Source: Daphnia pulex (Eukaryota; Arthropoda; Branchiopoda; Diplostraca; Daphniidae). Taken from it: a DNA stretch of 64,000 bases. This document shows, piece by piece, positions 13,489-47,939 of this stretch. The stretch's first letter is position 1. Each line of letters starts with the position of its first letter. The notes below the pieces were generated by a model that saw only the letters and a list, made by a program, of their open reading frames with translations, did not search any database and was not told the DNA's origin. The position numbers and the translations under genes are program-made. Where the stretch lies: contig NC_060017.1 in assembly GCF_021134715.1 (NCBI RefSeq), forward strand, positions 2,728,001-2,792,000, in the 5' to 3' direction.

Positions 13489-15789
13489 ATGATGAAAGCC
13501 TTGATAATGGCGCTCCTCCTCGTAGGAGCCGCGTTTTGCCAAGAGGCCGTCCCGTCCGAGCAATCGACGCTTCATCCCGACGACAATCTAATTGCCACCA
13601 GCACGGTCGCTTCTAATAACAAGGAAGTGAACCAAGGAGATGAACCCACCGTTTTACTACCGGCGCCAGTCGATGTGTCTTTCGCCGTTGGCGTCAAAGA
13701 ACAAGGCGACGGAGAAGGTGTTATTCCCCGCGTCGAAATTGATACTGATGGCGTCCCAATTGTTCACGGAGTCGTTCTGCCTGATGACCCCAATGACACG
13801 AAAACCTGGCGCAATGCTCGCGTCTTAAACAACGTCCTGCTCGACAAACAACAGCAGCAGCAACAGAGAGATGACAACAACTCTGCCATTCAAGAACAAC
13901 AAGACATGTTCATCTACAGGCCTGCGAGCTCCGTCCGCATTCTCAATGACGATTTCCAGCCTAGTCAAGCCGATACCTCGTCTTTCTCACCGTCGTTGCC
14001 TTACCCGGCTTACTACTACCAGCGATTCTACCAGGACAAAAGCTCGGCACAGCCCCAACTTCCGGATTCGTTGGCTGTCGAGACGGACGAGGAAGATTCG
14101 TCCAGCAATCCCAGCGAAGCCGTTGAGTCAGTGTCGGAAGTAGACCCCAATGTCGACGGGAGAGGCTTCAACATTAAGAAGAAAAACACCGGCATCGTCA
14201 AGGCGAAACCAGGATCTTCATACGGCTCTGGCGCTCGACCCATTACCTACTACGTCAAAGCAGAAGAGGCCAAGGAAATCCACGATGACCGCAGTCCCTA
14301 CGAATACGAACCGGCCCAGCACCAGACTAGCTACTACACCAGTGATTATTCTACTCAGGAATCCGTCTCTAAACAAGACGTCCAATACTACCAGCAACAA
14401 CTTGAGCAGCAACAACAGCAACAATTGCAACTGCAACAGCAAGAGGAACAGCAGATGAAATTGAAACATCAACAAGAACAAAAGCAACTTCAGCTCCAAC
14501 AAGAACAGCAATTGAAATTGCACCAACAGCAACTCCTCCAGCAACAACAGGATCAGCAATTGAAACTCCAACAGCAACTTCTTCTTCAACAACAACAGGA
14601 GCAAGAGAAACTTCAATTAGCTCAATCTCAGCAGCAGTATCAACAGGAAGCCAACCCACAACGTACTGGATACTACCAACAAAATGGCTTTGTGCCCGGT
14701 AACGTTGTTCCGGCACCTCAAGATTCATTCGTCATTCGAGACCAGACCTACACCAGTGGAGGCCAGACTTTCTCTGTACCCATTCCCGTTCCCAGGGATC
14801 AGTACGTACAACAATACGATCAGCAGCAGTATGCTGCTCAACAGCAGTATGCTTCTCAACAACAGCAGCCGCAGTACGCGTACAATTTCCAGCAGTATCC
14901 TCCTCAGTTCTCTCAACAATATTACAAACAACAGCAACAGACCCAGCAGCCACTCGACTTCCTTGGCGCCAAGTTTAAGGAGCAGGTCCAGAAAGCTAAG
15001 GACAAGTTGCACGGAATTACTGATCCGGTGGTCGACCCTTTGATGGAAGCTGGACAAAAGATCTCAACTAATTTGGGTCTGCCAGATCGCGTTAACCAGA
15101 TCAATCAGAAGGTTGCCACTCCCGGTATTCTCGTCCCTTTGGCCATGGTCGGTGGCGCCGCTCTGGCCCTTGGCGGTCTCGGCACGGCCATCCATTTGAG
15201 CAATCCCGACACCAAGAACAACGTCTTCAAGACCCTCAAGATTGACAACTCGACTCTGGCTGAACGCATCACCACTGCTTTGCATCCGTTCCGCAATACT
15301 AGTCGAGTCGCCCGCTCCGCTGACGATGAGGATGAAGGCTATCCGGCAGCATCCGAATTCGTCGACGACGAAAAGGAGAACCTCCTCAATCACGTCCTGT
15401 CTGCCCTCAATGGCCCGCAAAAGTCGTTCCTGGCTCAGATGCAACAGACGGGCTTTGACGAATGGCAGAAGACGCCGTGCGCCAAGCGAATCTTTTGTGA
15501 CGTCATGATCCAGCAAAATGACGACGCCATTAATCTCATGGAGAAACGCATGTCCACCTTCCTCAGTCTGTAAGTTGGCTCCCGAGCCTTGCGGCTGTTT
15601 TCGGTCACAATGTCAGCAAAGATATTGGCAACACTAACGTCTCGTTTTTATTTTCTTATTTGCAGACTGGACAGTGGCGTGGCGCGCAATTTGCAAGCTC
15701 TGACGTCTGACGTGATGGATGGAATTCGCCGTAGGAATTGTCGAGCATTCGTTTGCGGTAGCGCTCAACCCCATCCCCAACAACAGTGA
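13489..15789 (+). CDS. Secreted Gln-rich protein, cluster member 1
   Basis: Exons are 13489-15569 and 15666-15789, joined by a 96-bp phase-2 intron, giving 734 residues. A 5'UTR intron (about 12961-13478) precedes the start. The first ATG after that acceptor opens a clear signal peptide (MMKALIMALLLVGAAFC). The body is acidic and Tyr/Ser-rich. A Gln/Leu-rich, likely coiled-coil tract spans about 299-391, followed by Tyr/Gln repeats. A hydrophobic Gly/Ala segment lies at about 543-571, an R-V-A-R basic site near 606-609 and a Cys-x5-Cys pair at 664 and 670; the second exon adds a Cys-x4-Cys pair. The same C-terminal plan, with the intron between the two Cys pairs, occurs in the genes at 19820 and 29575. 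I do not recognise the family. An extracellular or matrix role is inference from the signal peptide and low complexity. Confidence 0.85.
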
Positions 15790-18700
15790 TACGCCCCGTA
15801 AAAACGGCCGACATTCACGAGAGACAAAAGAGCAATTCCAACCTGCTACTTTACATTAGCGCCCAAACGGCGTCTCGGTCTTATATTACTTTTGTTTTTT
15901 GTCTCCAGCGTGCATTCTTTTCTTATTTTTAATAAGCCTTTCGTTAATAAGTTATTGATGATATATTACTTATTATTGACTAATTCTCTATAGTTCGGAC
16001 TATCATCAAAAGCTTGGAAGAAACAGCAAAAGTGTCAGAGAACCATTTTATTATACGAACGCAATTTCCGAACTGGTTTCGGCAATTGGCAACTGAAGTA
16101 TTAGTTAACTTTATAGTAAAAAAAAAACGCCTCTATATCTCGTGCTGTTTTGTTTCGTGTGTCGCCTCAAAGGTTGTTGCTTCATTTTTTTGCATCGACG
16201 TAACCCGCACACGTTTTTCTCGTTCGTCAGCCCGATCTACTTATTTACTAACGCTATATTTACAACGGTTTGAAAATACAAATGTCCAACTTTATTTTTC
16301 GAGTCTTCTTCTTTAGGGCAGTAGGCTATATGGCTGGCTGTTAAAATATTATTCGTTGGAAGGATAGAAAATATGTCAAACACTTGGATCAAACCTCTAA
16401 AAAGGCGCAGCGCATCAATAGGGCAAGAATGACTCAGCGCTGTTTCAATCTCATACATTGAACGCAGTCGTTATCACAAGAAAGCATGACGCAACCATTC
16501 ACTTGAAACAACTGCTGCTTTACTGAGACAACGGTGAATATCTTTCAATCATACACGTACCATAAATTTAATTTTCCATTCAATTTTTACTGACAAGACA
16601 ATCTAGAATTCAATCCGTTGGTTCCGCTCAATTTCATCGGACGAATAAATGTTCTCAACTCGGCAAATCAAAAACAAAGCGATTTAATGGATGTTTTACA
16701 AGAAAAAATAATAATAATTCCCAGTTGGTATTAAAGTTTTGGATTGGGCGCACATAAATTGTTCATTGCAGAGGTGAATGCTAGCAATTCGGGAACTGAA
16801 TGGCCATTGTTGCTGAATCAAAGCTGACATTAAAATAGTTAACGAAGTGCATAACTTGTACGAAGCCCACTTTTCCGCTCTTTGTTGCGTCATGATCAAA
16901 GAATATCGCGCCGTAAAACAAGAATTTGAGGAGCACAAATCCCATACATCTGCCAACGTTTGGACGCATTACTCAACAGCGCTGCCGCGTGATTCGCCGA
17001 GGCGTGAAATGTGAAAGCTGCACCGAAGAACAAAGAGAAATTTGACAATCCAACTCATGGCTGTATTTCACAGTCGTTGGACAAGATTATATATTTAAAT
17101 CATCATAGAAAGAAGGCGGAGTCTCGGCAGCTGGACAATCAAATGACTGATGAAGTTGGTGAACTCCATCTGTCCCACCTACTACTATGGTACTGGGAAC
17201 TTCATTGACATTGAATAACTCTTTTGGATCCCCCATCAGAGAGCAGTCAGCCTCATCTCGCATTGAAGTGCTCCTTATGCGGCCGAGGGTACGGGTAAGC
17301 TCCGTCAATGACGAATAACCGATCAGATCCCTTTTTTATTCTTTCCAGTGGCGTTATTTTTTTTAAATCTTCATCCATAGTGCATGTATGGTGGGACCGC
17401 CCAGACGGTGCCTACAGTTTTCGACACCATACGCAATTCGCCAAAGGCCTTTCTTTACTAATAAAACACCGTGAGTTTTGCCGGCCTTGGTAGTTTCTGA
17501 TAGGATTTTATGTTGGATCAAGACAAGGGTCTTCTTATCATTATTAAACATCGCGTGATGGCTGTTATTCCACACATTGGGTCGTAAGAATCAGACGACC
17601 AAGATCCCGTCGAGTGATGTGATCATGGCTGTCGTGTTACAGAAAATGATAACTGGCTGTTAACTCCCTAACCTACAGCCAGAGGCAATGAAGACGATGT
17701 TTAGATTGTTGTTTTTTTCCCTTCTCGCTAGCTCAGCGTTTCGTGGCGTCAACACCCGCCGATGCAGTTGCGTGAGCGCATCATCATCACCGGTGCCAAA
17801 GTGTCTTTCGTTTTTTTTTTTTTGGGTTGTTGGAATTTGATACTCCGCAATAATCTCTGCGCATTAATTGTCTCGCTGCCATCAAGAAATCATCCGTTAT
17901 GTTTGACAGCGCCTTAATGTAAAAGATAGCCACTATCTAACATCTGTGATTAATTTAGCGGCCCTATAAATAATTTACGATTATATACGCACAGCAGCGC
18001 ACAAGGTACACGTGAATTCTTCGAGTGGCGGCGCTGCTGCAGGCGTACCAAGTTGTCGTTATCATCTCCTTCGTTTTTTCTCCGCTGCTGGTTCCTCGAA
18101 GCAAAAAGATGGTAATCGAGGGAATTTTTTTTTGTCCATAGAAATGTTTCTGTGTTCCGTTGCGCCGTTGGGGAAACTCGGTCAGTGTGTCTTTTTCTCC
18201 CCGTACCTCCTCGTGCCTCATCGGTTTGTGGCCGTACCACCGAGGGGTTCCCGATCGGATATGGCGATTGAATTATGAACAGGGGTTTGGGGCTAAAGCT
18301 TTCTATTTGAAATTCAAAAATAAGAAGAAAACAGAGAAAGAGGAAGATATAGAGAACAAGGAAGATGCGGAGAAAGAATTTTTTAAATGAAAGGGGCCAT
18401 CCTTATTACAGACCCAAAAACGGCTTAACCGGACCTTTAACCGATTTGTTGACCTACATTTCAAGGTCGCTAATGATATCCTTTTTTGTGTCCATGTCAC
18501 TCAGCATCGACCTTTATGTATTTACCGTGCCGTATTCATCTACCATCACGTGTGTATGCGGGAGTGACCTCCCCTTTGCCATATATATCCTATGCACAAC
18601 CTTTCTATGGGTGTGAACTCTATCTCCATTCAACGTTCAGCCTCTCCGCCTTAGCAATATGGAATTAGTTGGAAGCCTTCTGACCCCATTCTCTTTTCGG

Positions 18701-19395
18701 ATTCGAACTTGTATCCAACAGATGCGAGGGACGAGCAGGAGAGCTAGCTTTCTACGATTTCGATGATGGACGACTGACTAGACTCATCCCAGTATTTTGC
18801 ATACGGTGTTATTATCGAAACAACTTTTTTTTTATTCTTTCCCTTAATTGTTTCCGCCTTTCTCTTAAAATGCCGTTGCGTATTCGAGTTATATAAATGA
18901 AGGAACGATGTCATTTACGAGAACCCGCATAGGTACGCAATGAACTCACAAGGAAATGCCAATCGCGTGATCCCCTCCACCTTCGTTGACGGGAGAGAGT
19001 TGATTAGAGATTGTTGTGAAAGAGTGAGAAAACTTACCCGACCGCTTTACAGCTCCACAATGTTAAACAAGCCAAGATAGAGATGCGGTTAGGAAATGCC
19101 AAATCACACTATACAAGAACCACTCCTGGCCCACATCAATCAATGGTTTATATAGAAGAACCTGTATGGTCGATATCAATTTACAGTTTCAAACAAAAAG
19201 ATACAAAATACTACCAGTCCATTGATGGAATATTCTCAGAGTTTTTTTTTTGTTTTTTGGCCACCACTTTCTTTTCAGAAAGCGGGTGCTGATTCTGATA
19301 ATAGTCACACACTCACAGGTCTACATTTCGTTCGGCTTTATTGGACTAAAGTTATGAGGTCACGTTTGACAAAAACAAAATGAAGTGAAGAACAA

Positions 19396-19432
<37 letters not shown>

Positions 19433-19600
19433 AGACGTCGAATTGAGTTTAACATATTCTTAATAAGAAATGCGTACGGGTTCGCATGGCATTCACCAAG
19501 CGACGAGCGAGCGAGCAACCGAGGAGGAGACTTTTTGAAAGAGTAGCGTGGGCTCTCTTCTACCTCGAGTGGGCCAGTTTGAGGTCAACCCTGGACCCAG
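15790..19600. other. Intergenic stretch between cluster members 1 and 2
   Basis: No coding exon is supported. It contains the 3'UTR of member 1 (an AATAAG-like signal near 15930), a GA dinucleotide run at about 19401-19431, and a TCAGTTCAG initiator-like sequence at 19600-19608 that may mark the transcription start of member 2. Short open frames at 17950-18278 overlap on both strands and show no family features. Confidence 0.5.
19401..19431. repeat. GA/TC dinucleotide microsatellite
   Basis: About 15 AG units lie roughly 170-200 bp upstream of the probable start of cluster member 2. GA runs near arthropod promoters can be bound by GAGA-type factors; a role here is only inference. Confidence 0.8.
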
Positions 19601-19819
19601 TCAGTTCAGCCTCCGGAGAAGTCTCTCATCTCTCAGTGTCATAGCCAGCATCATCCCACAGACATTGCTGCAGCTTCTGCATATCTCGTCGTAGTTTTTC
19701 TTTCGAGAGTCTTATTATTTTCGTGTTTCAGCAGCTTCAAGTCTATTCAAGGGCTGATTTATTCAACCGCAAGGTGCACAAAGGTGGTTGTTTTCTAAGG
19801 CAAACTGCAGCGCCGGATC

Positions 19820-22800
19820 ATGCGGAAGATTGGGCATCGCCAGTGGCGGACACGCAACTTTTGCCACTTCATAACGGCGTTGGTAATCCTCACGGCCATC
19901 TGTGCGGGAGCGGATCAGACGAATGACGAGTCTCGCATTGTTGTTGTCAAAAGAGGCAGAAGCGGCGGCAGCAACAAACGACCCCCCGCAAATCGTAAGC
20001 AATTTAATCAACAGCAATTGTTGACTCATTCTTTTCTCATTTACAAAAACCCTGCCGATGATGCAATTGTGGACACTGTAAAAGAGGTCGACGAGTCGCA
20101 AACGGCGGCACTCGACACCAACTTCCTACCCCCGCCCGTGCAACAATCAGCTCCAGTTGTTTTTACACCTGGTTTCGTTCTACCGGTGGAAGAGCCCAGC
20201 TTGGACTACCTTCCGCCTCAGTCTGCATCGATTCCACCACCAAGGGAGTCCACCAAGAAAAATCCAACCATTTTTTTCCCTCCGCCTGACAGAAATCCAG
20301 AAATCGATGCGGCCAATCGTTCCCTTTTCGATGCCAATGAACGGCCGCTCTCCTTTGAGCCAAAGAAGGAAGAATCGTTGAGCGTGAACAACGGCCCGTC
20401 GTCCTTATTTGACGATAATGTCATTCCTCCTGCTGGCGTTATCCAAAGAATCGTCGTCAACAACAGCAAGAACAGACAAGAAGCCCAACCGAATTATTAC
20501 ACCATCCCGAGCAGAGTATCGAACGAACCCAAACCGCCAAGTCCACCCGTTTATGATCGATTAGACGACAGTCTTTTCGACTTGGAATCCGAGTACGAAG
20601 ATAATAAAGCTGTGCAGCAGAATCCTGGTTTGCCAAGTGCGTCGTACGGATGGCCGGCCACTACTAAACGCCCCAAAACTCCATCGCTGTTTGACACTCC
20701 CTCCAATTCGGATGATTTTAAATATCCCGTGGCATCTTCATCGTCGAATTTTGAACCATCACCGCCATCTATTTCACTACTGTCGAATCCTCCAGCAGCA
20801 CCTCCGGGGTACATTCCTGACTCTCCTGCTCCGCCAGCTCCTCCTTTTTCTCCTCCTTTGGCTTCTCCTCCTGCCAATCCTGGCCCGGCTGCTCCAGTGC
20901 TCTATGCTCAATCCGACGGAGATTATAATCAAGTTCACTTGACATGGGCACAACTTCACGCCAGTTTGACTCCATCGACAGATGCCGCAGGTATTATTTC
21001 TTCCATCACCAATAGTGGCAACAATTACGCCACTACTAGCGGCGGCGGATCACGTCCCGCTCCTCCAGTGGGGCCTCCGTCACCTCCAATTGTTGGCCCT
21101 CCAGCTCCTCCTCCTACTGGAATCCGACCTCCTGCTCCTCCTGTCGTCGGTCCGACTCGTCCAGGTGGGATCGGTTCAACGATAGGGTCAACAATTGGTT
21201 CAACGTTAGGCTCACTGCTTCCGGGCGGAATCGGCTCGGGGATAGGATCAACGATTGGATCAACGATCGGCTCACTTGTTCCTTTCAGTCCACAACCTCC
21301 TGCTCCTCCTCTCACATTCGCACCTTCGTTGTTTAGTGCTAATTCCGACTCTTATGGATTTTCCAATAGTGGAACTCAATCCGCCCAGCCGCAATCTTAC
21401 CAGCAGCCACAACCACAACAACAAGAACAACAGTTTCCCAGTTATGTTCTTTCAGCAGCCAGTCCCTTGGCTGCAGTTGGGCCTCCATCAGGTTACAGCC
21501 CATCTTTTTCGAGTCCTCAGCAGCAACAACAACAGCAACAGAACACACCAAGTGGGCCAACGATCATTATATATTCAGGATCGCCCTCTTCTCCTGGCCA
21601 ACAAAGTGATTCAGGATTAGACTACGGTAGACAACCTTCTTTCAATCCTCCTGCCAATCCACCGTCTTATCAACAGTCTTTTAGCAATCCACCAGCAGCA
21701 CCTCCAGCGAATCCACCGTCATATCAGCAATCTTTTAGTAATCCTCCCGCTTTACCTCTAGCCAATCCACCGTCATATCAACAGCAGTCTTTTAGCAGTC
21801 CACCAGCGAATCCGTCATATCAGCAATCCTTCAGTAGCCCACCGGCAGTACCTCCTGCAAATCCTCCGTCATATCAACAGCAGTCGTTTAGCAGTCCACC
21901 AGCAAATCCACCATACCAACAGTCTTTTAGTAGTCCATCTGCTGCCCCTCCTGCAAATCCTCCATCATATGAACAATCTTTCAGTAATCCTCCCGCTTTA
22001 CCTCTAGCCAATCCACCGTCTTATCAACAGTCTTTTAGCAATCCTCCCGCTAATCCACCGTCATATCAGCAATCATTCAGTAGCCCACCGGCAGCACCTC
22101 CAGCCAATCCTCCGTCATATCAACAGCAGTCTTTTAGCAGTCCACCAGCGAATCCACCGTCATATCAGCAATCCTTCAGTAATCCTCCCGCTTTACCCCT
22201 AGCCAATCCACCGTCTTATCAACAGTCTTTTAGCAATCCACCAGCGAATCCCCCGTCATATCAGCAATCCTTCAGTAGCCCACCGGCAGCACCGCCGTCC
22301 AATCCACCGTCTTATCAGCAATCGTTTAGCAATCCTCCGGCTAATCCGCCGTCATACCAGCCATCCTTCAGTAGTCCGCCCGCAGCCCCTCCAGCGAATC
22401 CGCCTTCTTTAAATTACGATTCATTTAATCCTTCATTCAGTCCATCTTTTAATCCACCCGCAACTTCAAACTTCAATAACTACGCACCAGCAAATCAACA
22501 ATTTTCTAGCCCGCCGCAACCTCAAGCACCTCCTCAACCTCCTGCGCCACCCCAAAGTCTTTTTAATTCGTACGGAGAACCCATTGGATTAGCTGGTGTC
22601 CCCATTCGACCAAACTCTCAACAACAGCAGCAACAACAACAGTTGCCCAGCTATGTTCTTTCTCCGGCTAGTCCCCCAGCACCCCCAGCACCCCCAGTGG
22701 GTCCTCCATCAAGTTACAGCTCTTCTTTTTCGAGTCCTCCAGCACAAACTTTCCAGGATGCCATTCCGGTATCCAGTCCGTCTTATCAGCTAGCCGCACA

Positions 22801-25800
22801 ATCACCACCTTCTGTAACTTACGTACAGCAGCAGCAACAACCCGTTTTTGTCCAGCAACAGCAACAACAACCCGTTTTTGTCCAGCAACAGCAGCAACAA
22901 CCCATTATTCTACAGCAGCAGCCGCAGCAACCCATTATTGTCCAGCAGCAGCCGCAGCAACAGCAAATTGTTGTCCAGCAGCAGAGGCCAGTTGTGGTTC
23001 AGCAACAACAGCCTGTTCTCGTTCAGCAGCAACAACAACCTGTTCTCGTTCAACAGCAACCCATCGTCGTCCAGCAACAGCGGCCCGTCCTTGTCCAGCA
23101 ACAGCAGCCTGTCCTAGTTCAACAACAACCAGTTATTGTCCGGCAGCAGCGGCCCGTCATCGTCCAACAACAAGCACCGGTATACGTTCAACAACAACAA
23201 CAACAACAACAATATACTTATGATAGTTATCAACAGCCAGCAGTTCAGTTCCAGCAATCATACGAGCCTGCCTACCAAACGGTGGTCCAACAAGCCGCAC
23301 AGCCAGTTCTACAGCCCGTCGTCCAAACAGTCCTTCAGCCGGTTCGAGCAGTTTTCGATCCCGTTTACCGGCCAGCTAATCCCACGCAAGTCTTGCGCGT
23401 TCCGGGATTCAAAGCTCAAAAGGGTAACAAAGCTAAAGCCAAAGGTAAAGAAGGAAAAGGAAAAGACAAGTTTAAGAGCAAAGGTAAGGGTCCATCCAAC
23501 AACAGTTTCTCAGCTCCGTCCAACAGTTACGCAGCCCCGTCCAACAGCTACGGAGCTCCACCGTCCAACAATTACTACCAACCTCCGGCAAACGATCCGC
23601 CGGCAAACGATCCACCGGCTCAAGATGACCCAGTGTTTGACACCGTCGTTGAGGTCTTGCAGCCTCAGCTAGACATTCAATATCAGTACAAATACTCTGG
23701 GCCACCCATCATGGGGCGCGGTGAAAAAGCTTCTAAGAAACTCAAGAAACTTTTCTACAAGGGGGCCATCCTGCTGGGCGGATTAGGAGCTATTACGGCA
23801 GCGCCCATCGTTCCCGGAGTAATAGGTCGAAGAAAACGTGATACCCGACAACCGAACGACGCCGCAGTAGCCAATTTAGCACTGATTCCATCGACTGATT
23901 TGATGCAAGATTCGTATATTCCTAATCCGAAACTGGAGTCAGCATCGGTGGCCGCCGAGAACAAGTCTCTACAAATGGGCAACAGCAGCACATCTTTATT
24001 TGATAGCCTACCTTTTCAAGGTGCCCCGATCCCCAAGAAATTGCGCAAGGAACTAGCTCGTTATCTACCAACTGCCGAAGCCATGAACGATGCTGAATGC
24101 CTACAGAAATCTTTCTGTGAAAATTTGATTGAACTCAACGACTCACCTTTCCAGGACAGCTTTCTCTTCTTCTATGCTGCGTGAGTATCTGCATTTATTT
24201 AATTCATTCCTTATTCGATTTGCTTTACCGACATATCTGTGCGGATATCTAAGATCTCAGATATGGGAAGGAAATCGCGTCGTTCCTTTTTTTTTATGTC
24301 TGAATTCTGGTGAGAAAAAAAAAATCTGTTGAGCAACGCAATGATGCAATCGAAAACAGGAATGACCAGTCACCTGAAGAGTCTCGTGAGACAGCGTTAA
24401 ATTCGTCGCGGTATATGTGGAACGAGGCATTCATTTACGGATTGGGCGGATCTCGGCGGCAGGATTCCACAAAAGTTTAGGTGTCTGTGCCTCATTGGCA
24501 TTTTCTATTTGAAACCTTATGATGTTGCAATATCAAGCTCGGGTAAAAATAGATTAGATAGACTGAAGCCAAGTAGGGAAACAATACAACGGTTTGTCAG
24601 CTGACCGAAGTAAAGATGCCAAGTGGTCCAAGTGCGCAAAGTCCATCCATAATGTATAGAGTGACGTGAACTGTTGAACTCCCCATTCCCAAGTTGCAAC
24701 TGTGTCACCGTTCACCGGCAACAGGTGATCCCCCCCCCCCGAGGTGAATAGACGGTAGCTTTCACGGAGAAAACGGTCGGTTGCGTCGTTTATAAACGCA
24801 GACGTGAAGCATTCTTTCCTTAGTGGCTTGTAGTTGGCGAAATCTGATACTTAATTTATTCGAATCAATATATTAGCTCGAAACCCGATAGAAACCCCAA
24901 AACTCCTATCGGAAATCAACGGTGAAAAGGGCTTAGAATAAACCTGAGTCACGTACAAAATCCCCAAAATAAAACTATTGGATAATGTTAAGATACCTGA
25001 AACATTATTTAAGGAAAGAATTCGCCTGCGAGCACGCGAAGTCTTCAGTCTTGTTCTGACAATATGTTCATTCTTGCGGCCAGCAGATGTCTTCAATATG
25101 CGTTCGGTAAAGAAATTTCCACATAAGGAGAACTAGGATTTATTTATTTTTTTTACAAAAAAGGACATTAAAAAGCACTCCGAATTTTAGTGTGCGATTA
25201 AAACGGGTTTGGGGTCAAATTACTGAATAAGTAGATTATCTGCGTTGAAAGCCAAATGGTGAACGAGTGATGCATCGGATTAATTTAGTCATGCAGGTCG
25301 ATAATGTTATTCCTAGAACACGAAAAGTAATCAGGGCAAATCAAGGGATTATTTTTTTAAAAAGACCCATTTAAAAGTTTTTGTTTTCTAAATGTCGATG
25401 GGCTGATTAGGAAACTTCCATATAGTCGATAAATTTTCCAGGTCAGACATCCGTTTCATGCACAACCATTCCAATAATCGATACAATACCAAATTACAGG
25501 TTAAGAAAGAAAAAATACTGTGGTAGAGGCTTGGACCCGAGTTGGATGACCCTTTGAAGTCCATCGGTTTCCCCCTATAGGCAACATTTCATGTTGTCCT
25601 TATTGACAGCGCTAATAACACCGTCTGATGTACGTCACGTAGACAATAACCTCCTGGTTCTTTCCAATCGATCGCGCCCTACTTTCACAAAGTCGTGCTG
25701 TAGATTTAAGTTCTTATTCTTCATTATTGCTTCGATGAGATCGCCATTTGAAGCAATGCACATACTCGTACTATAAATATGTCCTCAGTATAAATAGAAG

Positions 25801-27097
25801 ACCGCCTTTATTTATTGCCACACAGTAGGGGCGTGCGTGCAGCACGCCTTCGGCGGAGTGAAATTCCCAAACCGACTCCAGACCGGCTGAGCGCAGTCTA
25901 TATTTGCAGTCGCGCCCTTGGAAGCGGCGGGCCTGATTGCGTCGCAACGTTGTGATGCATATGTATACGCTATATCGAGACGGAAACATAAAAATGTATT
26001 CCACTCAGCGTATTCAAGAGAGACAGAAATTGCAACGCGTCTGTGTGTGTACAATTGCACATTGCGTGACAATAGGTATACGGTATAGGATTGTTGAAAT
26101 GCCTTACATATTGCGCTAGCCCCTATTATTTTGCTTCATGATGAAATATGACACCCACGACAGCACATCGATAGAACTCGGAAATGCGTGTTGGCGGACG
26201 GCTTGCTGCGCATTTGGCTACCAAACTCCAAGTGATGGGCTTCGCATTCCGTTGAAATCACGTAACGACCCCCAGTACGACAATTGCGGCTATCGTGCAG
26301 CGCCACGAGCAATGAGATTACGTCCCGAGAAACAGAGAAAAATCACGGGACGGGTGTGTTTGTAGATTAACCTTGTGAGGGTATCACGTGCTGAATGCTG
26401 AGAGAATCAAGGTCTGGCTCGACATAAAGGCATCAGCGCTGTCGCGCCCAAATCGATCCAACTCGAAGGCGATTTTCTTGTTGTTTTCCAATTGTTGACC
26501 CTTTGGCGATTAGAACTCTTTTGATAGACTTATTCGGTCCAATAGAGGAAGAATAAATTTAAATTCGTATTCAACTAAGCGGCGCATTGTTTTTGAAACC
26601 ACGACTACCTCTAGGATTATCACGCTAAACAAAAGTTTGGATACAAGCGTTCCCTAAGAAACCAAACAAGGCCATGGCGGGTTCGATCGATTGAATTGCC
26701 GATTGCATTACCAAAGTTGGATGTACAGAAGCACGTTTTATAACGCTGGGAAACAGACCAAACAAAAAATATATCTATGCCAAACGAGAGCAGCAGTTAG
26801 ACTAGCGATACTTTTGTTTTGGTTTATTTTCATTTCTGAAATGTATAAAATCAACCGGGAATACGATTTAATTTAACGGGTTATTTTTACAGTCTGTCAC
26901 CTGAAGCGGACAAAAACCCATGGTTGCAACAGTCGCTGACTGCCGCCAAAAAGAAGAAGTGCAGCGAATTTTATTGCACGAAAACGGCGGACACGAAAGA
27001 CGAGGACGGTGCGGAGATCGACGACGACACAACTGCGACTGATGACACAACCGTTAGTCACAATCCAGAGGCTGAAGGACCGTCGCCAGCTGCTTAA
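19820..27097 (+). CDS. Large secreted Pro/Gln/Ser-repeat protein, cluster member 2
   Basis: Exons are 19820-24180 and 26893-27097, with a 2.7-kb phase-2 intron, giving 1521 residues. After a basic N-terminus the segment FCHFITALVILTAICAGA (about residues 14-31) is a signal peptide. The body holds Pro-rich stretches, Gly-Ser-Thr-Ile repeats (near 450-490) and about 14 imperfect NPPSYQQSFS(N/S)PPA units (about 607-870). It continues with QQPVLVQQQ-type repeats (about 1000-1127) and a Lys/Gly-rich tract (about 1197-1223). A hydrophobic Gly/Ala/Ile segment ends in R-R-K-R (about 1312-1340), a good furin-type site, then Cys-x5-Cys; exon 2 carries Cys-x4-Cys and an acidic tail. The repeats resemble arthropod structural, cuticle or adhesive proteins, but no chitin-binding consensus was seen. 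It shares its C-terminal plan with the genes at 13489 and 29575. Confidence 0.85.
21640..22430 (+). repeat. Coding minisatellite: Pro/Ser/Tyr/Gln units
   Basis: About 14 in-frame units of roughly 36-60 bases encode ANPPSYQQSFS(N/S)PPA with variants such as ALPLA, AAPPA and AVPPA. Higher-order repetition of two to three units is visible (for example PALPLA recurring in a fixed order), which points to unequal crossing-over. Length variation between individuals is likely. Confidence 0.85.
22820..23215 (+). repeat. Coding repeat: Gln/Val/Pro-rich units
   Basis: CAG/CAA-rich units encode (Q)n-P-(V/I)-(F/L/I/V)-V-Q repeats within cluster member 2. Mixed CAA and CAG codons interrupt pure triplet runs, so selection for glutamine at protein level is as likely as slippage alone. 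Confidence 0.8.
24181..26892 (+). other. Long intron of cluster member 2
   Basis: The intron starts with gtgagt at 24181 and ends with ttattttta cag at 26892. It contains a C10-type run near 24729-24738 and no recognisable nested gene. Opposite-strand frames at 25771-26072 are short and featureless. Confidence 0.7.
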
Positions 27098-29250
27098 TTT
27101 CTAAACAACAACCTTCTGTACTTCTATTATCATATAGTGTCTGTATACGAACTAAAGTAGCTAATCAACATGTGTTTCATTTCATTATCTCAAAATGCCG
27201 CAATTGTCCTTTATGTGACTAAATCCCGTTTTATTATTGTTACCACAATCAAGGCCAGCAGAAAAAAGAAGAAACAACACACAGGAATTTATCGGATGTA
27301 ACGAAAACTCGCAGCAGGTCTCGAGTCAATATATACACACTGTAATTTTCACGACGCGTTCGGTTATGATGATCTATCCGCAATACACAAAGTTTTTATT
27401 CCAGCACGACTGTCATTTTCCTGTCGCAACTTTACTAAGTAATAATATCCAAGGAGACGAATTCCCTACAGGAAAATAATTAGGCCGGCAATTGCTTGGA
27501 AATTTCCTGTTACGGAAACCTCTATTCCCTTCGTTTCCTGTGTATATGGCTGCTAGATTGTATTCCAACCATCGGTTCTTACAAGGAAAGAAAAATAAAT
27601 ATTTCACGATTTTACCGTATAATTTCTAGCTGTGGCTAACGAACCTGATTATATTATACAACTCACCAAGGTGTAAAAGAGACTTTTGTTTCTTCTCTCG
27701 TCTTATGTATATAGGTATCTCTCCCTCTGTTTCTGTTTCGAGCTTGTCGCAAAAGTTTTCCGTCAGTCAACCATCTTTCCTGCTTCCCACCGATATTCTT
27801 CCTCCCAACACTACACTGTCCACTTTTTGACCGAAAAATCAAGAAGATTCGGCTATAGTAGCACAAAAGTGTGAGCCATCAATTGATGGAATGGAACGAG
27901 TAATAATGGCAAGCACACTGACAGACGTTGAATAATTGAAATAATGAATAGAACGGCATACCGTATAACTTTGACAAAAAGACAATAGGTGACACACATA
28001 CCCAAAACTTGGCGAATGAATCAACAAGCAGAGGGGTGACAAATACAAAATATTGTTCGACTCTAACGGTTGGCAGGTTCGAAACCCTTCATCAATAAAA
28101 ATAAAATAAAGAAACTCCAGCAGCTTATTCTTCCTTGTGTGCAACAAATGCCTATGCGCTTCTCCTGTTTTTTTTGGCATGCTGTTGTCCTGCTGAAACG
28201 CCACATCGTAACATGGTCATAGATGGCTATCCCGTTATATTAGGGAGAAGAAAAAAAAGGCAGGGAAGGAAACAAACGTTCTGTGCAGCAAACGAATAAC
28301 GCTACCGTTGTGTCAATTCCGTGAGAGAATGAGAGGTGATGAAACTGATTGGAGTTCTGCACGAATCCCGTGATCACGGATGATACAGAAATTCAAATAA
28401 TCATTGAATACTTTTATCACGCTAGGTTTTTCGGGTAGTGTAGGCAAGAAAATAATACATAAATGTGTGTAATTTGCATTCACATAACTGACGTATGTAC
28501 GTTAAAAGAGATGACTTTGTAGTTTTACAAGAGAGAGACCACGTCTGTCTGTCAAACGGAAGCAATTAGCCTTTAGCCATCCAATGTGTTATGACGTCGA
28601 CCACTTTGCGTAACAAAAGGGAAGTAAATGGAATGTTCTTTTCATCGTTTGATGTACCACCAGATTAATAGGCTATATTACACGCAGTGGTATGACACAA
28701 ACATTTAAAATTGGATATTCACTTCAAAGTACTTAACGGCTTCCTTTTCCCGTTGTACTACCGGCCCTACCCGGCCCCTTTTCAAGTAACACAGACTAAA
28801 CGAAATATTCGATTGACTCTAAGAGAATCCAGCGGAAGGGAAAGCGTCGCTGATGTAAAAACAATAAGATTCGTCACGTATCGACACCTTCAACCTTGGA
28901 AGAATCCGTCCACACCCTTCCTCTGGCGTCAACATTCAACGTAAGAATACTCTTTTCATATTCTTCTATGTCTCTAGGTTAAAGATTCGTTCGACAGTTT
29001 CTATAATGTTTCGGGAGAAAACTGTGAAAATGATACGGTGGTTGAGTTTCTATTGTCCGCTTTTCCTTCAGCGAATGATTTTTTTGCCGTCCGGATGGAT
29101 GGCTGGAGTTGGAAACTCACGAGGGCGTCAATAATACCGTGCAATGAAATATACTGCCAGGTGTTGTGTGTGTATTCGTTAGCGATGACGAGAGGCTATA
29201 TGGACATTACTATACTACGTGAGACAGAAAGAAGGAAATAAGAGGAAGAC
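27098..29250. other. Intergenic stretch between cluster members 2 and 3
   Basis: This holds the 3'UTR of member 2 and the upstream region of member 3. No coding exon, RNA gene or repeat is recognised. Confidence 0.5.
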
Positions 29251-29254
29251 GTGC

Positions 29255-29287
29255 GATATAAAAAGCTCGGTGACACTCCACAGTTGC
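29255..29287 (+). promoter_or_regulatory. Probable TATA box and initiator of cluster member 3
   Basis: gatataaaaag lies at 29255-29265 and a cacagttg initiator-like sequence about 25-30 bases downstream (near 29280-29287). A 5'UTR then runs to a donor after 29493 (aag|gtgggt), with an acceptor at 29570, four bases before the ATG. Spacing fits a focused arthropod TATA promoter. No transcript evidence is available. Confidence 0.45.
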
Positions 29288-29574
29288 ATGCATTGACTTG
29301 TTCGCCGTCCTCTAGATGCTTCTTCGACTTACTTGTCAGTGAAACAAAATTAAGTTTAAAATTTTCTTTCTCCGAGTGCGAAACTAAACACCTCGTTTTT
29401 TAACACGTGATTATCCCGCGTCAAGCCTTTCGTGCAATCACTCTCGTCTATTCGCATTGCACGTCACTAAGGAATTTACTCAAGTTACTCAAGGTGGGTG
29501 TTGAAACTTTTTGAACCAAAAGAAGGCAAACTTTTTTCATGTCATCTATTTCGTTTTGATAATTACACAGGAAA

Positions 29575-30584
29575 ATGACAAAACGGGTTTTCATCGTAAC
29601 TATTGCCCTGCTGGCTTTGGCTGCCGGTGCCATGAGTGCTTCACTTCAGCACCAATCGAGTCTCGAGGACGATAACGAGATCGATCTAACCGGCTCCGGG
29701 AAGACCAGCAACAAGATAACGATGCTCGAGATGACCAAAGCCCTTCTAATGGAGCAAGTAGCTCGTGCCACATCCACCAGCGAGGTGTTGACGCTCAACA
29801 TCACAAATCTGGTCGTCCTGCTGGTCATCAAAGCCATCATCTTTGGCTTTGGATTTCTGGGCAGTTTCGGACGTCGGTCGTCGCCACCGTCGTTCTCTGA
29901 ATTCCTTATCGATCGTAACGATTTGATGATGGTGATGAGCTACGCCTTGGGTTCGGCCACCGACGACTACAGCTGCCTCTACCGTACGGCGTGTGACGAG
30001 CCAGAAGCCGCGCAGAGATACATGACCGCCACCAAGATGCTGGTGAAGGGGGCTAAGCTCTTCAAAAAGTAGGTTGAAATGATTGAATATCCATGTCATC
30101 TTTGTTTTATCCTCAATCAATCAAAGCCCGGTGGGTATCGCATATAAAGAATACCTGTGCATTTGTACATCCTGCAACAAGTCGGCCTATAACAGCATTC
30201 TCAGCATACCACGGCATTAGATAGCAACATTGTTTGCGTTAAGGGATGACGGAAAGAAGCAATAAGGAAAAAGAAAAATGGAAATTTCCTAGAGGAGTTG
30301 TCCATCTCTGTCGGAAAAATGCAATGCCTGTGAAAAAGTGGGAACGCGGCGGGTGAATGTACTTGTGCAAAGCAACTCATTTTTTATTTGTTTGTCGCTT
30401 GTTATGTCAATGTCTGACATATGTCTGACTTTCAATAACGTTGTGCTTGCTTTTTTTCTATAGTGAAATTGCTGGTTACAATGCGGACTTTGAAGATGTC
30501 ATCTACGGCGTTCAGGAGGCCATCGAGTTCCGCAAAGGAAGTGGTGTGTGCCACAAACAATACACCTGCAAGCCGATGGAATGA
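29575..30584 (+). CDS. Small secreted protein, cluster member 3 (minimal form)
   Basis: Exons are 29575-30068 and 30464-30584, with a phase-2 intron, giving 204 residues. The ATG directly follows a 5'UTR intron acceptor at 29570 and opens a signal peptide (VFIVTIALLALAAGAMSA). A short linker leads to a hydrophobic segment (NLVVLLVIKAIIFGFGFLG, about 77-95), a basic F-G-R-R site, and Cys-x5-Cys at 134 and 140. Exon 2 ends with Cys-x5-Cys and a Lys-Pro-Met-Glu tail. The low-complexity body of the two larger neighbours is missing, so this gene shows the conserved core of the group. Function is unknown; secretion or membrane insertion is inferred from the two hydrophobic segments. Confidence 0.85.
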
Positions 30585-32958: not shown

Positions 32959-34005
32959 TTATACGTCAACAACCATCTTTTTGTGAACGTCTGTGTTTCC
33001 AACCACCTGAATGAGAAATAGTTTCACAGGAAAATTAGCTATCCATTTTCTATCGCGAAAGTGAAAATAAGAAAATTTAGACGCAACTTACAGCGCAAAA
33101 TTCCTCAAAAGAGATTTTCCCGTCTTCGTCTTTGTCTGCGAAGAGAATAGTTTTGTCAACAATCTGCTGCAGCTGAGTGTCTTTCAAGTTGTTCCCCACC
33201 ATCATTTTCAAAACCTAGAGGAAAACAATTGTTTAGTCTTAAAAAATGAAATACAAGAATACAAGACAAGATTACTTGAAACAGTTCTCCATTTGAAATG
33301 GCTCCATCATTATCCATATCATAAATGCGAAAAGCAAAGCGCAGCTTTGATTCTTTATCACCTTTGACACTGAACTGAGAAACACCCTGAATGAATTCTG
33401 TTTTTAAAACAAAAATAAGCTTTAAAGTAGAGTATTTGAAATCTGCTTAACTACAACAACAATTAATTACCTTTAAAGTCTACTTCTCCATTTCCATCTT
33501 GGTCAAATATGTCAATAACTCTCTGAACAAGTGGATTTTGTTGAAGCTCCGGCAAAGACATAAACTCATCCACACTTAGTGAACCGGAGTTGTCAAGATC
33601 TAACTTCCGAAAACGCTTCCCAAGTCTTCGGATTTCATCAGCATCAACTAGTAATCATGCATAAATTTTAGTATGTACTATGATATTGATTTATATAGCT
33701 TACAGTTTGAGCACATCTCCATGGGAAGTGAACTTTCATTGCCCTGTATTCAAAAATCAAATCATTAGATAATCCTTGTATCTCGCAGAGCATCGTTTGA
33801 AATTGATGAAAATCGAGTATCACACAATTAAACGTCTGCGTTCTATGATAAACACTAATTAGAGACAATGTTTATCTCTAGATCAATGAACTAGCAGAAG
33901 TCCATGTAATGAATCAGACGATAGAATAATATTTTAATAGCGGAAACTCAGCTGGTAGAACGATGGGAAAGCTAGTAAAGAAATGTTTAAGAAGATTATT
34001 ACCAT
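32959..34005 (-). CDS. CanB: Calcineurin subunit B (Ca2+-binding regulatory subunit)
   Basis: Exons on the minus strand are 34003-34005, 33704-33743, 33471-33647, 33276-33397, 33092-33214 and 32959-33006, giving 170 residues, the usual family length. The first coding exon holds only the ATG, which directly abuts a GTAATA donor. The protein starts MGNESS, a typical N-myristoylation signal. Four EF-hand loops are visible ([48 protein letters not shown]), and it ends VHKKMVVDV as in other calcineurin B proteins. It binds the calcineurin A catalytic subunit and makes the phosphatase calcium-responsive in the cytosol. It lies about 830 bp downstream of BTBD9 on the same strand. Confidence 0.97.
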
Positions 34006-40399: not shown

Positions 40400-42157
40400 T
40401 CAGTGACGGTTTACAAACGTGAGTAGACTTTTTGGCAGGTCGCCGGGGACGAAAGGTATTCGATTTCGACGAATCACCTGAGCAGCTAAACATTTAAGTG
40501 GCCGTAGCCGCACTCTATTGATCAGCTTTTGAAGATATTTACTTGGCTTTCCTTTATCATTCAAATCTTTTTCTTTGAGTTTGAAAAGATCCAAACATGT
40601 TTTTCCTTTGCCATCTGGCTGATCGATATTGGCTCCCGAGTCCAACAGCAGCTGAACTGCATCCGTGATATTCGTTGTCTCCGACCAGCGTTCCCATTGG
40701 AAGCTGTTCGCTAGAATATGTAGTGCTGTTTTTCCATTGGTAGAGGTAAAATTTGGATCAACATCGAGTTCCAGTAACAATTTCATTAGGTTGATCCGAA
40801 AGCGTTTCGGTCCTATCAAGTCTGCAAATAAGTTACAACACGCCAGGTGTAGAATATTTCCCTTGTCTACTCTGTCAAACCTGTAATCGGCGCGAATGAA
40901 CTCGTAAACGATCTGCTTGAATTGGTGACTTTCTTCCTTGCTTAATGTTGGAAGCATTTCGGTTAAAAAGTCAATCAAGTCAAAAATCAACAAATCAAAT
41001 TCTTGATATTCGCTGATGTTAACCAAATTGTGATTGACCTTTAAGGTATTTTCGAGTGTGGTCATCACATTAGTGAATGTAAATTCGGAGCTGGGCACGT
41101 CTTTGAGTTTTGCGAAACTTTCAACTAAAATTCCAATCGTCCTGATGATTATGTCGTTAACTTCGTCATCCCATTCTTCAAAGCCTTGAAACTCATCCAA
41201 CATGAACATGCCGATGTTTATGGCTCTATTGTAGTGGTCTTCACAGTGCAATCGATCGGCATGATTGCACAATTGCAGGAGAATATATTTGTGTTGCTCA
41301 GGATCTGATTGATCAAGAATCCTCTGAATGACTAACAAGGCCTGAGTGTAGAGATTCAATTCAGGGTAGTCATCATCAAAGTCAAGCTGGGCTTCGAGTT
41401 GCTCGAGGTGTTCCAATGTCAGGAATTCGGAAGTGAAGCCCATCGCCTTGACAAAAAGATCAGACGGAGGCGAAATTGTTTTGGGAATCGCCTGTTCTCC
41501 ATCGACAGTCGAAAGACGAAGTCTCGTGGCTTCTTTCCAGATAGAAATGGCGTAACTCGATGATACTAGGCTTGGGCTGTATCTGTAAAAAACGTAGGCT
41601 GCTCCCATCAATTCCAGCGCTTCGATTTTCTGCTCCGTAGGGATTGAACTTGCCTTTATTCCCTCCATGTCGGCGGTGACCTTATCCAACTGCTCCTCTT
41701 CGACGACGACAAATTCGTCGACAATGTCCGCCTGACGGCTTATTATGGCTGCGCACAGAGGTGAAACATTGTCATACTTGACTCCCCTCCACTCGAAAGT
41801 CCCATGGAGATTAACATCAACTCCAAGCTCCCTTAGAAAGACGACGACTTCACAAGATCCGTTTTGGATGGCGGTCAACATGGGGGTAGTTTCGTGTTCG
41901 TCGCGGGAAGTTGCCGGTAGTGTCGTTATTTCTGGGCCTTGAATGGCAAGTACTTCTTGTAATTCCGGTATAAATTCAGATTTAATTGCTCCCTGGAAGA
42001 CGTGTTGCAAAAGTCTCCAGCAAGCATTCGATTGATTCCGGCTTCTTTTGGTTATCAGGAAGAAAAAAATCAAAGGCAATGACATACCGAATAATAGGAA
42101 GATGTAAAATTCTGGAGTCAGCGGTGAAGTGCAGTCGTCCATTTTATTTAAGTCCAT
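40400..42157 (-). CDS. Divergent, intronless FEM1-like protein with N-terminal membrane segment
   Basis: A single uninterrupted frame encodes 585 residues. The C-terminus LKCLAAQVIRRNRIPF followed by GDLP and LLTFVNRH matches the FEM1 VHL-box end. The segment KIEALELMGAAYVFYR matches the conserved FEM1 helix after the ankyrin block. Two N-terminal ankyrin-like repeats (near 90-150) and two C-terminal ones (near 440-525, TALHILANS and LLLDSGANIDQPDGKG) remain, whereas FEM1 proteins usually carry six or more N-terminal repeats. Residues about 17-37 (FYIFLLFGMSLPLIFFFLI) form a predicted membrane anchor not expected in FEM1 proteins. FEM1 proteins are substrate receptors of cullin-2 ubiquitin ligases that read C-degrons. 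Lack of introns suggests an old retrocopy. Whether it still assembles a ligase is unknown. Confidence 0.85.
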   Translation of the reverse strand: MDLNKMDDCTSPLTPEFYIFLLFGMSLPLIFFFLITKRSRNQSNACWRLLQHVFQGAIKSEFIPELQEVLAIQGPEITTLPATSRDEHETTPMLTAIQNGSCEVVVFLRELGVDVNLHGTFEWRGVKYDNVSPLCAAIISRQADIVDEFVVVEEEQLDKVTADMEGIKASSIPTEQKIEALELMGAAYVFYRYSPSLVSSSYAISIWKEATRLRLSTVDGEQAIPKTISPPSDLFVKAMGFTSEFLTLEHLEQLEAQLDFDDDYPELNLYTQALLVIQRILDQSDPEQHKYILLQLCNHADRLHCEDHYNRAINIGMFMLDEFQGFEEWDDEVNDIIIRTIGILVESFAKLKDVPSSEFTFTNVMTTLENTLKVNHNLVNISEYQEFDLLIFDLIDFLTEMLPTLSKEESHQFKQIVYEFIRADYRFDRVDKGNILHLACCNLFADLIGPKRFRINLMKLLLELDVDPNFTSTNGKTALHILANSFQWERWSETTNITDAVQLLLDSGANIDQPDGKGKTCLDLFKLKEKDLNDKGKPSKYLQKLINRVRLRPLKCLAAQVIRRNRIPFVPGDLPKSLLTFVNRH

Positions 42158-42879
42158 TTTGGTTTTGAACTAATTCCTTGAAATTATCTTCGATATGACA
42201 ATATGTGTCTTATAATTCAGTCCAATATATATAGACTTTGTTAGGATATGTTTGTTGAGCAACTCACTTCTCGCAAAGAATTTCGCGTTTACCTTTCGAC
42301 TGTTTTCTCATTCATTAGAAATTACTTTTGTATCGACTTTAATTCAATTTCACACACATTGTTTAATTATCTCTATTTTAACATTTTTTTACTATGAATT
42401 TTGTTTATAGGTTATATTTTCTTTGCTCGGTCCTTGCTCATTTCAAAAATGTGCGCCGTGTTCGTTACGGCGGTTCGTTTAACTATTCCTAGGTGGCCAT
42501 TGTTGTTTTAAAAGCAGACATATGTGATGCATATTTATGTGTGCATTTATATGCATTAGCCATTATAGCCCATTAGGTAATTCTTGTCGGTTAGTCGGGG
42601 TTAGAGACTAGAGAGCTGCCGGAGAAAGTACACGAAATAAATTAGAAAACAGAAATCATGTTTTTATTACTTTTCAGTCATTCATTGTGCGGCCGGCATG
42701 CACTGCTGAACGGACTCGCAAGTCGCAACAAACGGCGAATTCCGCAAGAGTGCGTTCGCAAACAAGGGGGAGAGCAGACGACAACTGGTAAGCAGTCCAT
42801 GTCCAAACACGTTGTGTTTTGTTGCACGTCGTTATTCCATTGAAAGGACAAATTACAATTTTGAATTGCCAAGAATAAA
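42158..42879. promoter_or_regulatory. Head-to-head upstream region, FEM1-like (-) and C9orf85-like (+)
   Basis: The 720 bp between the two start codons should hold both promoters. A plus-strand frame at 42658-42843 lies in the probable 5'UTR of the C9orf85-like gene and shows no homology I recognise. Confidence 0.5.
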
Positions 42880-45628: not shown

Positions 45629-47939
45629 ATGCGTATCGAATTAGTTATTCTAGGCAGTCTTGTTTTGTCTACGTCAGTCGTGGGAAATGCGTATTACCAA
45701 AAGAAGCAATTTTATCCTTCAGTGGTTCATATAACTAAATCCAATCCTAGCATGATGGTAACCATTTAACATAAAAATATTGGTTATAAAAACACATAAT
45801 ACAAACAAACTTTACAACAGGTGATGTACATTCAAGCCCTAGTCATTGTGGTTTTGCTGGGAAAATTGATGAAAAAAGTGTTTTTTGGCCAATTGCGAGC
45901 TGCAGAAGTTGAGGTATGTATTTACAAAATGTTGTGCATAATCTTGTTCAACTTCTAATTTTCATTATTCCAATTACAGCATCTTATTGATCGATCATGG
46001 TATGCAATCACAGAAACATGTTTGGCTTTTACTGTGTTTAGGGAAGACTTTTCAACCAAGTTTGTTGCCCTCTTCACGGTTCTACTCTTCCTCAAAGCTT
46101 TCCATTGGCTTGTTGAGGACAGAGTTGATTATGTACGTAGAGCTTCACTGTTTTATTTAAATATTTTAATGATCTCAAATAATTTTGTATATTTGAATTT
46201 TAGATGGAGCGAAGCCCCATAATATCTTGGTTGTTCCATTTTAGAGTGACATGTAAGTTAGAGTATATATAACCTTTCTACATAGAATTGTAACAGGAAT
46301 GTTGAATATCTTTCATTCAGCATTACTTTTGGTCTTGGGGGTTCTGGACTGGCATTTTATCCAAGTTGCATATTATGCTACTTTAACTCAAGGAGCTTCA
46401 GTTCAACTGGTATTTGGTTTTGAGTATGCCATTCTGTTGACCATGGTAGCAATGGTTACAGTAAAATATGCTCTCCACACTTATGACATCAATCGTGAAA
46501 ATCCTTGGGAAGATAAAGCAGTCTTTTTGCTGTATGCTGAACTTGCCATTGGTAATGTTTTTCACTGAGAAGTTACTGAGTAAAAAGCTTAATAATTTTA
46601 TAAAAAATTTAGGTTTTATCAAAGTCATTCTATACATGATGTTCATGTTGATTATGATTCGTGTATACACTCTACCCTTGTTTGCTGTCCGACCGATGTA
46701 CCTAGCGATGAGGTAGCTAACTTTGATCAATTTCATTGTCATAGTGTTATAATTTTAGCCTTGTGAAATAGGTCATTCAAAAAAGCGTTAAGTGACGTAA
46801 TCCTTTCTCGGCGAGCCATTCGCAATCTGAATACATTGTATCCCGACGCCACAACAGAGGATTTGGCTAACACCGATACTGTCTGCATTATTTGCAGAGA
46901 AGAAATGGTTACTGGTAATTCATCACAACAAATCATTTGTTTGGCTCTAATGATAATTTTTTTATTCTTTCAATAGGAGCTAAAAAATTGCCTTGCAACC
47001 ACATCTTCCATGCTACTTGCCTTCGATCCTGGTTCCAGAGACAACAAACTTGTCCAACTTGCCGACTTGAAGTTCTGCGTGCACCGGGCAATCCAGTTGG
47101 GAACCCGGCAGCGGCACCTGCCGCTGCTAATATGCGACCACCTCAACCACAAGCTGCGCCACCACCTCCTCAGGTATTAATGAATGCACTTAATGAAACG
47201 CAAAAACTTATAGTTCATTTTTTATTTTTTATGTTTTATTATACTTATGATTATGTTTTAGGCTGCAGCAAATATGCCCCCGGCAGCTCCGATTCAGCCA
47301 CCACTACAGCCTTTCATCCCCCCTCATCATCCTTTTACTTTTCCTTTTCCCCTGCCGAATATCGCCCAACAAGCTGCAGCAAACGACGCTCGATACGCAC
47401 CGGACGCAAATGGCCAAAGGCCAGCTATGCCTCCGCCATTTTCCCTCCCACCTTTCATGCCATTTGGTATGTATTTAATTTATCAAGTGGATATTGAAAT
47501 ATCGTCATCTCTGTTTTTTTTTATTTTGTTAGTTGTTCCACCTCCGAGACCGCCTGCTAATCTTGGTGCACTCAGTGACGCTGAGTTGCGAGCAATGGAA
47601 GGGCAGGAAAGACGACACCTTGAAGCCAGAATTCGTGTTCTGAGAGATATTCAAGTATTGCTCGATGCAGCAGTCTTGCAGATGAATCAATATGGAATTC
47701 TAGTGTCTCGCTTAGAACATGAGGCTAATAATAATACTGAAACTCTAAGGAGCGCAGGCGAAGAGGCTTCAGCGACGTCTGCTCCACAGACGAATGAGCA
47801 AGAGCCCATTATCAACGTTACTCCTCCAGAAACGGAAAATGAAGTTTTGACTCCTGAAGAAGAGACAAATTTGAGTGATCAAGAGAGATTAAGACGCCGA
47901 CGTGTACAGAGATTCATGAATGCTGGGGAGCAAAATTGA
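45629..47939 (+). CDS. SYVN1: Synoviolin/HRD1, ER membrane RING E3 ubiquitin ligase
   Basis: Ten exons: 45629-45757, 45821-45913, 45980-46132, 46204-46252, 46321-46551, 46613-46712, 46772-46914, 46977-47173, 47262-47466 and 47533-47939. They give 568 residues (617 in human). The start MRIELVILGSLVLSTSVVGN was chosen because the next residues align with the human N-terminus (AYY...QFYPSVV...TKSNPSMM). Multiple membrane segments fill about 1-235 (GQLRAAEVE, HWLVEDRVDY, GASVQLVFGFEYAILLTM are diagnostic). A RING-H2 domain spans 290-328 (CIIC...CNHIFH..C...CPTC). A Pro-rich cytosolic region and an Arg-rich end (RLRRRRVQRF) follow. It ubiquitinates misfolded ER proteins in ERAD with SEL1L. All intron phases agree. 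Confidence 0.97.

Follow-up and report, generated by a model that had tools for sequence, protein, structure and literature searches.

A shared four-cysteine tail in three neighboring genes

The window analyzed here is a stretch of 64,000 nucleotides (nt) of the Daphnia pulex genome (RefSeq assembly GCF_021134715.1, contig NC_060017.1, positions 2,728,001 to 2,792,000), and the subject of the analysis is a group of three neighboring genes within it, G1, G2, and G3, all on the + strand. Their predicted spliced models, rebuilt from the sequence, encode proteins of 734, 1521, and 204 amino acids (aa), respectively, which share a C-terminal plan with two pairs of cysteines. As argued below, the three are probably divergent relatives of secreted arthropod proteins of the DM4/DM12 (PF07841) type, and we do not file them as DM4_12 members. 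Their features, in window positions, are as follows.

13489..15569, + strand: G1 exon 1, with signal peptide, Gln-rich body, hydrophobic segment, RVAR, and Cys-x5-Cys; phase-2 end
15127..15183, + strand: G1 hydrophobic Gly/Ala/Leu segment, aa 547-565; Kyte-Doolittle 1.97
15304..15315, + strand: G1 RVAR, aa 606-609; weak putative R-x-x-R cleavage site
15478..15498, + strand: G1 Cys-x5-Cys, CAKRIFC, then D
15570..15665, + strand: G1 intron, phase 2, 96 nt
15666..15789, + strand: G1 exon 2, CRAFVC and stop
19820..24180, + strand: G2 exon 1, with signal peptide, Pro/Gln/Ser-rich body, hydrophobic segment, RRKR, and Cys-x5-Cys; phase-2 end
23768..23824, + strand: G2 hydrophobic Gly/Ala/Ile segment, aa 1317-1335; Kyte-Doolittle 1.98
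23828..23839, + strand: G2 RRKR, putative proprotein-convertase site
24098..24118, + strand: G2 Cys-x5-Cys, CLQKSFC, then E
24181..26892, + strand: G2 intron, phase 2, 2712 nt
26893..27097, + strand: G2 exon 2, CSEFYC, acidic tail, and stop
29575..30068, + strand: G3 exon 1, with signal peptide, hydrophobic segment, GRR, and Cys-x5-Cys; phase-2 end
29809..29865, + strand: G3 hydrophobic segment, aa 79-97; Kyte-Doolittle 2.40
29974..29994, + strand: G3 Cys-x5-Cys, CLYRTAC, then D
30069..30463, + strand: G3 intron, phase 2, 395 nt
30464..30584, + strand: G3 exon 2, CHKQYTC and stop

Splicing was deduced from the sequence letters. All three introns are in phase 2 and have GT..AG ends, with the donors GTAAGT, GTGAGT, and GTAGGT and the acceptors TTGCAG, TTACAG, and CTATAG in G1, G2, and G3, respectively. 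They lie 23, 20, and 24 codons past the second cysteine. The last exon of G2 was picked by eye among 21 acceptor readings, for its T-rich acceptor (TTATTTTTACAG) and its Cys-x4-Cys end. A first-pass annotation of this DNA had placed a phase-2 intron between the cysteine pairs of three genes on one strand, and the rebuilt models agree with it.

Outside the signal peptide, each protein contains exactly four cysteines, including the 1521-residue G2. They are found at aa 664, 670, 719, and 724 in G1, at 1427, 1433, 1477, and 1482 in G2, and at 134, 140, 194, and 200 in G3. The last pair is spaced by four residues in G1 and G2 and by five in G3, and the residue that follows it is G, T, and K, respectively. 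Besides the signal peptide, a single 19-residue hydrophobic peak (Kyte-Doolittle) is present in each protein, ahead of the first cysteine pair. The signal peptide, hydrophobic segment, Cys-x5-Cys, and final Cys-x4/5-Cys described earlier were thus all found in G1, G2, and G3. The basic site that had been proposed for all three is seen downstream of the hydrophobic segment as RRKR in G2 and RVAR in G1, the latter being weak evidence for cleavage because R-x-x-R is present elsewhere too in both G1 and G2. The FGRR of G3 did not hold up as such a site; it is dibasic (GRR alone), and no R-x-x-R occurs anywhere in that protein. AlphaFold2 modeling of G3 exon 1 alone gave a poor model of helices only, with a mean predicted local distance difference test (pLDDT) score of 45, and it was set aside.

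Relationship of the tail to DM4_12

The plan of G1, G2, and G3 resembles that of the DM4/DM12 family, and the genome itself (133.2 Mb in 13 contigs) was searched with the Pfam model PF07841. The model matched 19 places; 14 passed the cut-off individually, and a fifteenth did so together with its neighbors. Nine DM4_12 loci were read, covering 10 of the 19 places (locus L001 has two). Like the window genes, these have four cysteines in two pairs. In 8/9 the first pair reads C-x2-R-x2-C-E, where the window genes have [RK] and [DE], and in 8/9 a phase-2 intron falls between the two pairs, at almost the same codon as in the window genes. In particular, all eight of L001-L008 have this first pair, with the phase-2 donor 21-22 codons past the second cysteine, and a last exon with C-x6-C-P could be assigned in six of them, L005 and L008 being without one.

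Genes closer to the window share this plan. A neighborhood of 314 kb, made up of the window with 200 kb on its upstream side and 50 kb on its downstream side, was scanned on both strands. The first scan gave 15 cases of Cx5C with a donor (nine in phase 2, three in phase 0, and three in phase 1), 10 of which had some second exon; by eye, five of those were genes, namely G1, G2, G3, and two more, U1 and U2. A scan with a narrower motif and a looser donor found 15 cases of Cx5C[DE] with at least 20 aa open upstream, and eight of these had a donor 15-30 codons on (five in phase 2, two in phase 0, and one in phase 1). Of those in phase 2, four have a complete second exon and are G1, G3, U1, and U2. 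The fifth is G2 by deduction, as its chosen acceptor failed the pyrimidine filter; for the same reason the first scan gave G2 another second exon.

About C1:2584390-2585200, donor C1:2584899, same strand as G1-G3: U1, 214 aa; some 140 kb ahead of the window
About C1:2587929-2588700, donor C1:2588399, same strand as G1-G3: U2, 210 aa; some 140 kb ahead of the window

In this reading, U1 and U2 have two coding exons each, with a signal peptide, a hydrophobic Gly/Ala-rich segment, a basic site, Cx5CE, a phase-2 intron (21 and 22 codons past the second cysteine, respectively), and C-x6-C-P. The x6 spacing of the last pair and the proline after it distinguish them from G1-G3. Their hydrophobic peaks reach 2.32 in U1 and just 1.36 in U2. 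U2 matched PF07841 at an E-value (E) of 0.0064 and 17.6 bits, where the cut-off is 22, and the match spans profile positions 12-86 of 86; U1 gave no match to this model. Searches with U1 and U2 led to two genes on contig C9 (L040 and L041), likewise with C-x2-R-x2-C-E and with a phase-2 intron at 21 codons, and the group of U1, U2, and the C9 genes aligned with the DM4_12 group at a hhalign E of 7e-6 over 71 columns. In L040 and L041 an additional intron interrupts the first cysteine pair, after CGSR and before LIC.

The nine DM4_12 loci, U1, U2, and the two C9 genes make up 13 relatives against which the window genes could be compared. The octet C-x2-[RK]-x2-C-[DE], broadened from R and E once the window-gene sequences were known, is present in all three window genes (CAKRIFCD in G1, CLQKSFCE in G2, and CLYRTACD in G3) and in 12/13 relatives, the exception being L042. 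Relative to C-x2-R-x2-C-E, the window octets carry conservative substitutions, R to K or E to D. It was found in 0/280 Cx5C octets from other open reading frames (ORFs) of the 314 kb, of which 27/280 have the [RK] and 10/280 the [DE]. A phase-2 intron about 21 codons past the second cysteine is likewise present in 12/13 relatives, and G1-G3 agree with it; this intron is a feature observed in the present genome and does not belong to the Pfam definition. When exon-1 windows were scored with a profile of ten relatives, G1, G3, and G2 ranked 1, 2, and 8 of 104 Cx5C windows, which is a mild test because the 101 control windows come from arbitrary stop-to-stop ORFs, most of them probably non-coding.

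Several results weigh against this relationship. The Pfam-A library, searched at E up to 10 with HMMER filters that discard most matches above about E 0.1, gave no DM4_12 match to exon 1 of each gene, to spliced G3, or to the G1 and G2 tails in spliced form. A hidden Markov model of the relatives' exon ends ranked G3 17th (E 13), G1 39th (E 41), and G2 292nd (E 220) among 2461 ORFs, and the joint profile of G1-G3 aligned with DM4_12 at a hhalign E of 0.027 over the first pair only. Cysteine-fixed shuffles equaled the ten-relative profile score in 6 (G1), 14 (G3), and 30 (G2) of 300; in a smaller run they scored as high in 0, 2, and 4 of 100 against all relatives and in 4, 2, and 10 of 100 against DM4_12 alone (order G1, G3, G2). 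The last pair is x4, x4, and x5 in G1, G2, and G3, as opposed to x6 in 9/9 relatives measured, and the proline that follows it in 8/9 of these is absent from all three. Used as queries against the genome, whole G3, 245 aa of the G1 tail, and 223 aa of the G2 tail each returned only themselves. Among the DM4_12 loci, L042 (C4:1738500-1739300) reads C-x2-K-x2-C-R at its first pair, keeps both pairs within a single open frame that has no intron there, and lacks a proline after the last cysteine; without the intron and the acidic residue, it weakens any universal rule for the structure of DM4_12 genes.

The Pfam search also listed Gly-zipper_Omp, ASFV_P17, and ASXH, all below their own cut-offs and taken as chance. 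A sequence search of the PDB with the three-tail profile gave five chance-level matches (best E 0.32), and none with G3 alone.

Direct pairwise similarity among the three tails is weak. By hhalign, G1-G2 gave an E of 0.014 (1/100 cysteine-fixed shuffles as good), G3-G2 0.034 (7/100), and G3-G1 0.24 (37/100). This near absence of similarity is what would be expected if the three were unrelated, ordinary secreted genes whose cysteine pairs and intron phases are alike by chance, an explanation already disfavored and one that we regard as very improbable. It sits poorly with the restriction of each protein, even the one of 1521 aa, to four cysteines beyond its signal peptide, and with the finding that, of all the Cx5C[DE] in 314 kb, those followed 15-30 codons later by a phase-2 donor belong to the five family genes alone, G2 being deduced. 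A closer competitor is that G1-G3 form a separate family unrelated to DM4_12, in which the four-cysteine tail and the phase-2 intron arose a second time or coincide. The absence of a Pfam match, the shorter last pair without its proline, and the weak profile scores are in line with this. The octet (3/3, as opposed to 0/280 controls), the intron phase and place seen in 12/13 relatives, and the bridging genes upstream, U1 and U2, with the same full plan, all argue against it, and we consider it unlikely. In plan and gene structure, then, the three genes agree well with DM4_12, and in sequence weakly, with G2 as the weakest case; homology to DM4_12 would follow from the gene structure, the cysteine plan, and the octet motif. 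The common descent of the three tails, which had been put forward at the outset, is supported by the intron phase and place, the four-cysteine plan, and the octet. The accompanying statement that no named family has this plan needs revision in one respect, as DM4/DM12 genes of the same genome have it and U1 and U2 form a bridge to them, and is borne out in another, as the Pfam model recognizes none of G1-G3. The octet together with the phase-2 intron is a gene-structure signature, and it may reveal relatives that profile searches miss.

PMC12825958 presents DM4_12, which is carried by two planthopper Osiris proteins, as a motif of 115 residues whose function is not known and whose four cysteines close to the C terminus are highly conserved; a table note in the same paper names it a transmembrane domain. 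Four conserved C-terminal cysteines, as in that description, are found in G1, G2, and G3. The Osiris proteins (DUF1676, PF07898) resemble G1-G3 in having a signal peptide, a hydrophobic or transmembrane region, and a conserved cysteine pair. An Osiris identity was rejected: there is no DUF1676 match in the three proteins and none genome-wide at E 1, and the C-terminal AQXLAY motif of Osiris is absent from G1, G2, and G3. The literature listed under the accession PF07841 was PMC12825958 only. Under the names DM4_12 and DM4/DM12 family, no work was recognizable from title listings as assigning a function to DM4_12, and none was found on Daphnia with DM4_12, or with glutamine-rich and proline-rich proteins and cuticle. 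The "DM4_12" of PMC13322080 is a retrotransposon that shares the letters, not the domain.

The bodies of G1 and G2

The first-pass annotation had described the bodies of the three proteins as completely different, and this holds for their lengths and compositions. Its Gln/Leu coiled coil in G1 found no support. Glutamine accounts for 120/734 residues of G1, and the Gln/Leu stretch of this protein shows no heptad pattern, 726/2000 shuffles being as good. The body of G2 is built up of DNA units repeated in tandem, of about 54, 96, and 246 nt and shorter, in the following stretches.

21647..22409, + strand: G2 body repeats, units of about 54/96/246 nt, PSYQQSFS..PPA
22826..23198, + strand: G2 body repeats, 24-69-nt repeats encoding PVxVQQQ units

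Differences between repeat copies at codon positions 1, 2, and 3 numbered 23/25/62 (offset 96, 367 sites) and 4/3/22 (offset 96, 164 sites), with a less clear lean at offset 246 (23/24/40, 323 sites) and offset 30 (4/1/6, 103 sites); these are raw counts from overlapping stretches, given without significance values. The lean toward the third position suggests selection on the protein, and thus that the G2 body is kept as protein. Because the body shares one exon with the first cysteine pair and is made of tandem DNA repeats, growth in place is favored over exon shuffling, which suggests that the body has grown within exon 1 by repeat expansion and was not swapped in. G2 contains the PSYQ unit 14 times and SYGAP once, and such sequences bring matrix proteins such as resilin to mind.

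The comparison with the DM4_12 proteins of this genome covered the exons of their C-terminal module. One DM4_12 match, G000:C10:15332455-15332760, lies in a frame that is open for 507 residues and may represent a DM4_12 protein with a large body.

A possible role for the tail

The arrangement of the three genes can be accommodated in the following scheme. A C-terminal module of about 100 residues, holding two cysteine pairs that a single phase-2 intron usually separates in this genome, would be preceded in exon 1 by a long low-complexity body that follows the signal peptide, Gln-rich in G1 and made of Pro/Gln/Ser repeats in G2; G3 would be the module with hardly any body. The precursor would enter the secretory pathway by way of its predicted signal peptide, and the four cysteines may pair as two disulfides within a small domain, which would aid folding, packing, or assembly of the precursor. 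A convertase might then cut at RRKR in G2, and perhaps at RVAR in G1, to release the structural body into the extracellular matrix of, for example, the cuticle or eggshell. The first-pass annotation had proposed the conserved end as an anchoring, assembly, or secretion module with the bodies as its cargo; within this scheme, a role of the tail in assembly or secretion is a hypothesis.

Alternatively, the three could be type I membrane proteins, in which the hydrophobic segment spans the membrane and the basic residues act as a stop-transfer signal, with the body outside the cell and the four-cysteine tail in the cytosol. The hydrophobicity of 1.97-2.40 across 19 residues, with basic residues after it, is what such an arrangement would predict. 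However, the segment is weak in the relative U2 (1.36), and conserved paired cysteines are better suited to an oxidizing compartment than to the cytosol. N-glycosylation sequons past the segment, two in G1 and three in G2 with none in G3, are weak evidence in the same direction. Overall, a transmembrane topology appears quite unlikely.

The secreted scheme can be extended, tentatively and with less confidence than the kinship to DM4_12, to a broader proposal, that the tail is a general arthropod cap for assembly or secretion, related to DM4_12 and carrying bodies of very different composition and length, and that the bodies of G1-G3 arose ahead of it by repeat expansion within one exon. We regard this as possible, on the doubtful side. 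The C-terminal domains of silk proteins offer a likeness to such a cap with varied bodies. If the tail of G1-G3 is the same module as DM4_12, its occurrence on bodies ranging from almost nothing to more than 1000 residues would suggest that it handles the sequence that precedes it, in secretion, packing, or assembly.

Elsewhere in the window, three flanking ORFs have suggestive translations: one at 33156-33446 (- strand) looks like calcineurin B (EF hand), one at 40400-42169 (- strand) an ankyrin-repeat protein, and one at 46257-47939 (+ strand) an HRD1-type RING ubiquitin ligase.

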